From 'Nostoc azollae' 0708 (GTDB lineage Bacteria > Cyanobacteriota > Cyanobacteriia > Cyanobacteriales > Nostocaceae): a stretch of DNA of 64,000 bases. Position 1 is the stretch's first letter, and every line of letters starts with the position of its first letter. The position numbers and the translations under genes are program-made. The stretch covers positions 1,225,501 through 1,289,500 of the forward strand of contig NC_014248.1 of the NCBI RefSeq assembly GCF_000196515.1, given 5' to 3'. Shown here piece by piece: positions 2,894 through 5,324 of the stretch. The notes below the pieces were generated by a model. It had not been told where the DNA came from. It worked only from the letters and a program-made list of their open reading frames with translations, and ran no database searches.

Positions 2894-3847
2894 ATGGCAG
2901 GTGCTTTAACAATTCAGCTGCCTAATATTCCCAGTGTGATTGCTCTAGGGGGATATGGGGAAGCAAATCTCAAATTTCTATCTCAACAAACAGGAGCCAG
3001 CTTAGTTTTACGTGGACAGGAACTCCTAATTGCTGGTACAGAGAAGCAGGTTGATCTGGCAGCGCGATTAGTGCAATCTCTAGAAAACCTGTGGAGTAAA
3101 GGCAATAATATATCAACTGCGGATATTTTAACAGCCCGTCAAGCCATAGAGACCGATCGTCAAGGAGAATTCCAAGACCTACACCGAGACATCCTCGCCA
3201 AAAGTCGTCGTAATCAAGAAATCCGCGCTAAAACCTTTCGTCAAAGACAATATATTGAAGCCATTCGCAAACGCGACCTCACCTTTGGTATCGGTCCTGC
3301 TGGAACCGGTAAAACCTATCTTGCTGTCGTCGTTGCTGTCCAAGAACTTCTATCTCATCAATTTGAACGATTAATCTTAACCCGTCCTGCGGTAGAAGCA
3401 GGAGAAAAATTGGGATTTTTGCCAGGAGACCTACAACAAAAAGTTAATCCCTATCTTCGTCCCCTTTATGATGCCATCAATGAATTCATCGACCCTGAAA
3501 AAGTCCCCAATTTAATGGAACGTGGAGTAATTGAAGTTGCACCACTCGCTTATATGCGTGGCCGCACATTAGATAATGCCTTTGTAATTGTTGATGAAGC
3601 CCAAAATACCACACCAGCACAGATGAAAATGGTTTTAACCCGTCTGGGTTTTGGTTCACGAATGGTAATTACAGGTGACATCACACAAACAGATTTACCA
3701 CTTCATCAACAATCAGGATTAATAGTAGCTTTACAAATTTTGAAGCACGTAGAAGACATTGCTTTTTGTGAATTTACCCAAAAAGATGTAGTTCGTCATC
3801 CTTTAGTACAGAGTATTGTCGCCGCTTACGAAGATCACGAAAGATAG
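2894..3847 (+). CDS. PhoH-like ATPase
   Basis: PhoH-family P-loop ATPase, presumed RNA-related because of an N-terminal KH-like region (residues 1-65) in this subfamily. The Walker A motif GPAGTGKT lies at about 134-141, Walker B is FVIVDEAQN near 230, and the sensor-like segment VITGDITQTDLP follows. The 317-residue length is normal. Placement after ffh, rpsP and khpA makes a group of RNA-handling genes. Its exact substrate in cyanobacteria is not known. Confidence 0.9.
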   Translation: MAGALTIQLPNIPSVIALGGYGEANLKFLSQQTGASLVLRGQELLIAGTEKQVDLAARLVQSLENLWSKGNNISTADILTARQAIETDRQGEFQDLHRDILAKSRRNQEIRAKTFRQRQYIEAIRKRDLTFGIGPAGTGKTYLAVVVAVQELLSHQFERLILTRPAVEAGEKLGFLPGDLQQKVNPYLRPLYDAINEFIDPEKVPNLMERGVIEVAPLAYMRGRTLDNAFVIVDEAQNTTPAQMKMVLTRLGFGSRMVITGDITQTDLPLHQQSGLIVALQILKHVEDIAFCEFTQKDVVRHPLVQSIVAAYEDHER

Positions 3848-3883
3848 TCAATTAGTCATTAGTAAAAAACTAAGTTATGAGTC

Positions 3884-4061
3884 AATACTACTCAGTTAAA
3901 ATGCTCAAACCTTGGAGATCCCTCTTAATCCACGCCACTTGCTTGATGCCGGGAGACCCGTCCACCGCGGTGGCTACCTTTGAAAAGGGGGAAATAAAGC
4001 CATTCTTAGCCTCCCTTTTTAAGGGGGGTTGGGGAGATCAAAAGTTAACCAAGCAGTATTG
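3884..4061. repeat. MITE-like insert A (178 bp) with 17-bp inverted ends and 10-bp target duplication
   Basis: The left end CAATACTACTCAGTTAA (3884-3900) and the inverted right end TTAACCAAGCAGTATTG (4045-4061) match at 13 of 17 positions. Immediately outside, the 10-mer AGTTATGAGT occurs at both 3874-3883 and 4062-4071 with no mismatch, as expected for a target-site duplication. The interior has the G-rich/C-rich palindromic stretch TTTTTAAGGGGGGTTGGGGA, common in cyanobacterial intergenic DNA, and no transposase. A 10-bp duplication is in the range made by IS4-type transposases (family knowledge); the parent element is not identified. The 61-codon frame starting at 3877 is only the left duplication's ATG reading into the insert. 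Confidence 0.85.
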
Positions 4062-4065
4062 AGTT

Positions 4066-4473
4066 ATGAGTACAACATTGAGAGAATTTTTGGAAGCTTG
4101 TGAAAATTTAGGAACTTTACGTTTAATTGTCACTAGCAGCGCCGCAGTTTTAGAAGCACGTGGGAAAATAGAAAAGCTATTTTACGCAGAACTACTCAAA
4201 GGCAAATATGCCAATATGCATACCGAAGGATTTGAATTCCATTTGAATATGGACAAAATTACTCAAGTGAAATTTGAAACAGGTGAGGCAAAAAGAGGTA
4301 ATTTTACAACCTATACAATCCGATTTTTAGATGATCAACAAGAACCTGCTTTAAGCATATTTTTACAATGGGGTAAACCCGGAGAATATGAACCAGGGCA
4401 AGTAGAAGGATGGCAAAACTTACGGGAAAAATATGGTGAAATTTGGCAACCTTTACCAATTGAAACTTTGTAA
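4066..4473 (+). CDS. Haem-utilisation (HutX/ChuX)-like protein
   Basis: A 135-residue protein resembling the HutX/ChuX branch of the HemS-like fold, whose members carry or store haem in the cytosol. The matching features are a segment FEFHLNMDKITQVKFETGE, the strand TTYTIRFLDDQQEPALSIFL, and a terminal W-x-x-L-R-x-K-Y-G. The similarity is from memory of the fold, not a search, so the family is tentative. The start ATG lies inside the right copy of the 10-bp target duplication of the adjacent insert, so the insert now occupies the position of the native ribosome-binding site and promoter. The 3' part is intact. Expression may be changed or lost (inference). Confidence 0.55.
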   Translation: MSTTLREFLEACENLGTLRLIVTSSAAVLEARGKIEKLFYAELLKGKYANMHTEGFEFHLNMDKITQVKFETGEAKRGNFTTYTIRFLDDQQEPALSIFLQWGKPGEYEPGQVEGWQNLREKYGEIWQPLPIETL

Positions 4474-4840
4474 CTTTCCCAATCAAAAATCCTCGAATTA
4501 TCCAATATTTCGGGGATAATAATTTATCCTTTGTCTTGTTTGCTTTTTTGGTGAAAACACTGTTAATCTCCTGCTTAATACTTTCACTCCTCTTAGGAAA
4601 TGGATAAGTATACGTAGGTGAATTAGCAGAACGATAATGTTACTCAATTAAGTTAAAAATTCGTTGAACTCCTTGTGTAATCAGAAGATGAATCCCTTGG
4701 AAGCATACGCCAGTTTCTGCCTCTTTCAGAGGAGCTTCCCTAACAAGTCGGGAAACCCGCCCAACGAACGCACTGGTTCTGAAGTATCCAACGCAAAGTA
4801 GGGGATTCTGTTGGTATAGTAACGAAGCTCCATTTGATGC
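4474..4840. other. Intergenic region with a dispersed hairpin-like repeat
   Basis: No gene is recognisable. Near 4715-4780 lies the sequence GGAGCTTCCCTAACAAGTCG followed by GGAAACCCGCCCAACG, which resembles a repeat I have seen scattered between genes in Nostocales. The 3' portion runs into the eroded transposase at 4841. Confidence 0.35.
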
Positions 4841-5324
4841 TTTAATGCTAGTTCACTTTCGAGAAAGAATAGATATAAAATTAGTCAACAAATTGAATCA
4901 AGAAGTTGTTAAATAGTGGTTAGAAATAAAAGACAGAGACAACCGTGCTTGGTGTAAAGAAAGAGGTATTAGAATCAGTGAACTTCCTTTGGTAAGACCA
5001 TCTAAAAATGTTAGTAAATAAAAAAAGAAACAAGCTTTGAAGGATGAGAGAATTCCTAACTATATTGAGGGTAAATTCGGACAAGCTAAACGAAGATTCA
5101 GCCTTGGGAGAGTGATGGCTAAACTTTCTCATACTTCTTTAACTGCAATTGCTATTTCTTTTTTAGTTATGAATCTTTCTACTCTTATCTTACGGCTTTT
5201 TTGTGTCTTTTTATGGCAATTTTTCAAAACCACATCTTTTTTCACTTCTTTTATTAATGAAAATTATGTTTTGGATAATCCCCAGCCCACAAAAACTTAT
5301 CTTTTCCCCTATCTGACTATTTAG
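4841..5324 (+). pseudogene. C-terminal remnant of an IS5-type transposase
   Basis: Translation of the plus strand gives DNRAWCKERGIRIS (about 4940-4980), then LPLVRPSKNVSK, an in-frame TAA, then KKKQALKDERIPNYIEGKFG and AKRRFSLGRVMAKL. This is the C-terminal third of a common cyanobacterial IS5-type DDE transposase, with the conserved EGKFGQAKRRF segment holding the final acidic residue. Another stop (TAG) occurs near 4917. The N-terminal two thirds and both element ends are missing, so it is dead. It abuts an oppositely oriented transposase fragment at 5325. Confidence 0.8.

Follow-up and report, generated by a model that had tools for sequence, protein, structure and literature searches.

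An IS4-family MITE at the start codon of a ChuX/HutX-type gene of 'Nostoc azollae' 0708, and a core that recurs in several MITE types

We analyzed a 64,000-nucleotide stretch of the genome of 'Nostoc azollae' 0708 (contig NC_014248.1, positions 1,225,501 to 1,289,500), in the following referred to as the window. A phoH-like gene and a gene encoding a ChuX/HutX-type haem-utilisation-like protein follow each other on its forward strand (Table 1), and in the majority of 80 named relatives phoH likewise precedes the haem-type gene. The spacer between the two genes measures 218 bp in the window versus commonly 35–160 bp in relatives. The protein encoded at 4066–4473 reached 38.9 bits against PF06228 (cut-off 25) and stayed below the cut-off of the HutX equivalog TIGR04108 (26.2 vs. 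110); these profile matches place it no more narrowly than among the PF06228 ChuX/HutX-domain proteins. The ATG at 4066 is supported as the true start by an N-terminus that is conserved in dozens of relatives. Just 3' of the gene, at 5037–5321, lies a partial DDE transposase (PF13586, E 1.5e-14) that belongs to a decayed insertion sequence.

Table 1. Coordinates of genes, repeats, and inserted features in and around the phoH-gene spacer (positions in the window).
Feature	Position	Strand	Remarks
phoH-like gene	2894..3847	+	upstream neighbour on same strand; PF02562 E 8.8e-98
Left target-site duplication AGTTATGAGT	3873..3882	+	includes duplicated ATG at 3877
61-codon upstream ORF through insert	3877..4062	+	starts at duplicated ATG; stop 3 bases before the gene's ATG
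MITE A, 179 bp, ends of IS4-family type	3883..4061	+	inverted ends and 10-bp duplication
Left terminal inverted repeat CAATACTACTCAGTTAA	3883..3899	+	
123-bp core cassette	3917..4039	+	GATC on both sides; also in MITEs with other ends
Small dispersed repeat inside core	3931..3975	+	boundaries +/- ~4 bases
Decayed intrastrand-triplex motif	4010..4038	+	8-triplet stem, 2 mismatches; unbroken in the cores of most relatives
Right terminal inverted repeat CAATACTGCTTGGTTAA	4045..4061	-	
Right target-site duplication AGTTATGAGT	4062..4071	+	includes the gene's ATG
ChuX/HutX-type haem-utilisation-like gene, 135 aa	4066..4473	+	PF06228 E 9.8e-10; purifying selection, as indicated by substitution counts

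The spacer contains a perfect 10-bp direct repeat, AGTTATGAGT, which is absent elsewhere in the 64 kb. With a chance expectation of 0.08 for the whole window, it is unlikely to be a random repeat, a possibility that the first-pass annotation of this DNA had considered. That annotation had recognised a perfect 10-bp duplication around an insert with 17-bp inverted ends, which was borne out, and had placed the right copy correctly at 4062–4071; its left copy (3874–3883) was one base off and really lies at 3873–3882, and the insert length of 178 bp is corrected to 179 bp (3883–4061). The inverted ends, CAATACTACTCAGTTAA and CAATACTGCTTGGTTAA, are identical at 14 of 17 positions and directly abut the duplication, into which they reach to form 23-nt arms with 78% complementarity. 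Two further details were confirmed: the gene's ATG lies within the right duplication (AGTT-ATG-AGT), and the left duplication retains a second ATG, at 3877. The proposal of a MITE that inserted at the start codon of the ChuX/HutX-type gene and generated a true target duplication is supported. An Rfam search of 3700–4300 gave sub-threshold chance matches only. Targeting of start codons by the element was also considered and rejected: the other 10-bp duplications of this type (GGAGACTAGC, GGTCTGGTTT, GAACAACTGG, CCTACCGTCG, CCTTATAATT, CCAGTAGTCT, and others) have no common motif by eye, so the landing of MITE A on an ATG looks like an accident of insertion.

In relatives, the phoH-gene spacer is found without the MITE A insert. 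In a Nostoc genome (L027), TCATTAGTAAAAAACTAAG, which stands before the left duplication in the window, runs directly into AAAGGATAATAATTTATGAGTACTACTTTG, and Anabaena lutea (L195) reads AAAAAAAACTAGCTTATGAGTACTACTTTGAGAGAATTT at the insert-free site. Both have the TTATGAGT region in single copy, the state predicted by the first pass for an empty site. The first pass had further held that the native ribosome-binding site was moved about 190 bp away. The leader is indeed displaced, by 189 bp; the displacement of a ribosome-binding site was not supported. A Shine-Dalgarno-like AAAGGA precedes the ATG in Nostoc L027 (AAAGGATAATAATTT-ATG), and no Shine-Dalgarno motif is visible in the leaders of the nearest relatives (A. 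lutea L195, A. catenula L183, and Sphaerospermopsis L127) or in the reconstructed empty site of the window. Removal of the ribosome-binding site by the insertion is therefore unsupported for this lineage.

MITE A has no transposase gene, its length of 179 bp is below ~500 bp, and its sole ORF lacks a family match. A search of its own genome with the end sequence (within two mismatches) revealed 59 sites, compared to 12 for a reversed control pattern. Several of these sites pair up as full-size IS copies with CAATACTGCTCGGTTAAGG ends, 2175–2203 bp in length and with broken transposases. Perfect 10-bp duplications flank three copies of 2175 bp each (L081, GGAGACTAGC; L083, GGTCTGGTTT; L084, GAACAACTGG) and one copy of 2203 bp (L082, CCCCCTGAAG), and a 2190-bp copy (L085) has a 9/10 duplication. 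Their transposase matches PF13006 and, below threshold, PF01609. No complete transposase frame was found among the IS copies read in this genome, and for that reason the element may no longer be mobile there. L081, L083, and L084 are near-identical, have different perfect duplications, and are all broken alike in the transposase frame, which would mean that either programmed frameshifting joins the frame or transposition in trans multiplied a defective copy.

An intact, multi-copy IS of 2194 bp was identified in a relative (G018). It has CAATACTGCTCGGTTAAGGG ends on both sides, identical over 17 bp, 10-bp duplications in the copies L242, L247, and L248, and a 468-aa open frame in eleven copies among those listed. 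Its transposase is an NF033592 IS4 family transposase (167.6 bits, cut-off 115). Y-R-E-K residues can be read in YHQRWEAENTLDELK. Related ISs of ~1.5 kb in G006 and G012 have CAATACGGTTC(G/A)GTTAAG ends and 10-bp duplications, and this end variant is also that of three sister MITEs in other genomes: L091 (G021, 179 bp, CCTACCGTCG), L099 (G139, 179 bp, CCTTATAATT), and L100 (G095, 180 bp, 9/10 duplication). The MITE end CAATACT(A/G)CT(C/T)(A/G)GTTAA matches CAATACTGCTCGGTTAA of the IS copies from the own genome and from G018, and the target duplication is 10 bp long in MITE A, the sister MITEs, and the IS copies alike. Because its ends and 10-bp duplications match those of full-size IS4 copies, MITE A is, as far as sequence can tell, a non-autonomous member of the IS4 family whose partner IS has been identified. 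It has the same or near-same ends and duplications as IS4-family ISs (NF033592/PF13006 plus PF01609), and differs from them in its small size and the lack of a transposase. By sequence searches, on which the copy census rests, MITE A has one complete copy in its own genome; full-length relatives (75–76%) occur in G021 and G095, and partial copies in G021. Searches found no further element with this interior in the own genome, and an active donor is thus not visible.

The first-pass annotation had taken the perfect duplication as a mark of a recent event. The single congener compared, an uncultured Trichormus MAG (G001, L126), shares this insert, its site, and its perfect duplication; the two copies are 92% identical, with differences at 14 of 179 positions. 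Since insert, site, and duplication agree, the insertion is, by this comparison, older than the split between the window's species and its sister species, and the perfect duplication is no sign of strain-level recency. A very recent, strain-specific insertion would fit the intact 10-bp repeat; given a congener copy at 92% identity, and barring recombination between both species, we regard it as hardly credible, and the claim of recency is unsupported. Regarding the genes, phoH differs from its G001 counterpart at 21 of 951 sites, and the haem-type gene at 16 of 405 (8 synonymous and 8 non-synonymous; dN/dS ~0.24). Under neutrality, ~12.8 of these 16 changes would be expected to be non-synonymous, and the binomial probability of 8 or fewer is ~0.007. 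This deficit argues that the gene was not released from selection. The right AGTTATGAGT copy is half coding and constrained.

It had also been suggested that the insert supplies a new promoter or leader. Retention of the insert in two species and the displacement of the native leader would agree with an insertion that was kept because it changed expression of the gene. However, a consensus scan found no promoter inside the insert (cyanobacterial promoters can depart from the consensus), no sigma-70-like promoter in the region rose above chance, and the insert has diverged faster from the congener than the 25-bp remnant of the native leader, in which 1 of 25 positions differs, and bears no sign of conservation. 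We consider this scenario unlikely, and a new promoter is unsupported. A terminator scan revealed no terminator-like site inside the insert. A still less probable reading is that the 61-codon upstream ORF is translationally coupled to the haem-type gene. Its frame is open in the window, with a stop (4060–4062) that arises from TATTGAG at the junction of element and duplication; in the congener, it comprises only 54 codons and ends in a TAA seven codons earlier, and coupling is thus not conserved. As it lacks conservation in the congener, the upstream ORF is probably incidental. The RNA fold of the inserted element was predicted at −67.1 kcal/mol, compared to a mean of −53.4 for 200 shuffles (z −2.95). 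All three start-codon bases are paired in the predicted fold with the insert; as two of them are mostly paired in its absence as well, the predicted translational effect is weak evidence. It is plausible that the hairpin would lower or modulate translation of the gene as well as read-through out of phoH.

With a probability of about 0.92, we favor the reading that MITE A is IS4-derived and was inserted in trans across the start codon before the species split, with the start and the constraint on the gene kept and the leader changed. An IS4 transposase acting in trans would have recognised the CAATACT...GTTAA ends of MITE A; after a 10-base staggered cut, the element would have been inserted across the start codon beside phoH, and repair would have left AGTTATGAGT on both sides. 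The insertion predates the separation of the window's species from its sister species. Because the right duplication carries AGTT-ATG-AGT, start codon and reading frame were preserved, and purifying selection on the gene continued. The leader alone is different: a short spacer became one of 218 bp, ending in the strong hairpin of the element.

The interior of MITE A is itself composite. Three elements of 134–138 bp (L109, L222, and L230) have the arms and the core of MITE A without a stretch of ~45 bp (CACGCCACTTGCTT...GTGGCT), and this stretch occurs alone at more than 10 further places in the own genome (81–89% identity), within a longer repeat. As the stretch is missing from similar elements and repeated alone elsewhere, MITE A appears nested and, on this comparison, is made of three layers, i.e., a small dispersed repeat in a GATC-bounded core in IS4-type arms. 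A ~45-bp repeat inside a mobile element likewise recalls the cyanobacterial small dispersed repeats of Elhai et al. (2008), a likeness drawn from their description as cited in PMC4390886. At several own-genome places (G000:C1 92650–4836454; L002–L014 and L016), the nested repeat is part of a dispersed repeat of ~150 bp or more, ending CTCTTGCC and GGTTCTCCAGTCGCACCCTGG; this longer repeat has many copies in the genome. A resembling sequence (ACAAGTCGGGAAACCCGCCCAACG...GCACTGG) is also found at 4728–4776, upstream of the DDE transposase remnant.

MITEs are usually viewed as internal-deletion derivatives of one IS. In a search of Nostocaceae with MITE A as the query, the best partial matches were in many cases confined to the interior. 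Reading outward from 56 core matches (among them a few loci retrieved twice), we found nearly all inside MITEs, which are of different types. Type A has IS4-like ends and 10-bp duplications. Type B has GAGGATGTTTGAAAAGT ends and 3-bp TNA duplications (TAA, TTA, TCA), type C has GGCTACGGTGTACACA ends and 7-bp duplications (e.g., CCCTCAG in L116 and CCCTTTG in L112), and type D has GGGCGTGTTTTCAAA ends and a TA duplication of ~2 bp (longer in L093). Types A, B, and C occur together in one genome (G213). The sequence common to the types begins and ends at GATC, a tetranucleotide that the own IS copy L084 has at bp 35–38 of both ends. Between types, identity is at least 0.95 at each of the first eight positions inside the GATC border, partly by construction at the border itself, which was placed using GATCCCCC, and lowered further in by cores that are not all in the same orientation. 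Over the 30 positions outside, it averages 0.34 on the left and 0.31 on the right, i.e., near chance. Cores in the same orientation from different types and different genomes have a mean identity of 0.835 (up to 0.95), compared to 0.855 for same-type cores from different genomes. The type A core of L100 is 95% identical to the type C cores of L102 and L105, above many same-type pairs. Convergent hairpins were rejected as the source of the common core, given the high identity inside the GATC borders, the near-chance values outside, and the mean of 0.835 across types. On these alignments, one core is present in at least four unrelated MITE end/duplication types in the same cyanobacterial family. 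Within type C of G102 (7-bp duplications), the core is flipped relative to the arms in L224 and L228 as compared to L232 and L094. In L227, the ends around the core are of a further variant, CAATACTGCGTAGGTT, and the duplication agrees at 9/10 positions (TACTAGGCGG / CACTAGGCGG).

An intrastrand-triplex motif, CCCCCCTT-loop-AAGGGGGG-loop-GGGGGGAT, is carried by 39 of 42 cores. We applied the definition of PMC4666352 (three matching tracts, a stem of 6 or more, at most one mismatch, and loops of 1–6) with an 8-nt stem. None of 840 base-shuffled cores had the motif, in a control that is lenient as simple shuffling breaks runs. MITE A itself falls outside the definition with two mismatches, and the motif has decayed both there and in the congener copy. 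Intrastrand triplex motifs are reported to be abundant in both Anabaena variabilis and Nostoc sp. strain PCC 7120, and have been linked to instability (PMC4666352). Those of the cores are of the same C-G-G class as the G/C-rich motifs described there, with short loops. In contrast to the E. coli motif, which was not associated with mobile elements (PMC4666352), the motif belongs to MITE cores here. We tentatively propose, short of calling it the probable case, that MITEs of unrelated transposases (IS4-type 10-bp, TNA 3-bp, 7-bp, and TA) exchange a GATC-ended core of ~75–125 bp with the triplex motif as a cassette, which would spread through Nostocaceae as one selfish or structural module; this exchange may be driven by breakage at triplex or GATC sites. 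A text search of the literature with the first 14 bases of the core returned only an unrelated paper, and an earlier description may exist, as key SDR and Nezha papers lay outside this search.

Other cyanobacterial MITEs, namely Nezha (likened by description) and those of Anabaena sp. 90 (PMC3542288), are likewise short, non-coding, intergenic elements of Nostocales with a strong hairpin. The MITEs of Anabaena sp. 90 were left without a partner IS ('type II') in PMC3542288, whereas MITE A has an identified one. As read from its sequence, MITE A belongs to the IS4-family MITEs and landed on a start codon; a new promoter is not shown. The insertion illustrates cleanly how a mobile element can replace the leader and spare the gene, with the duplication rebuilding the start codon. 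It is ordinary in itself; the core common to several MITE types matters more and is the more interesting lead. If the exchange of cores is real, MITE families would be modular, and the GATC-bounded, triplex-forming module would be a candidate for the unit that is copied.
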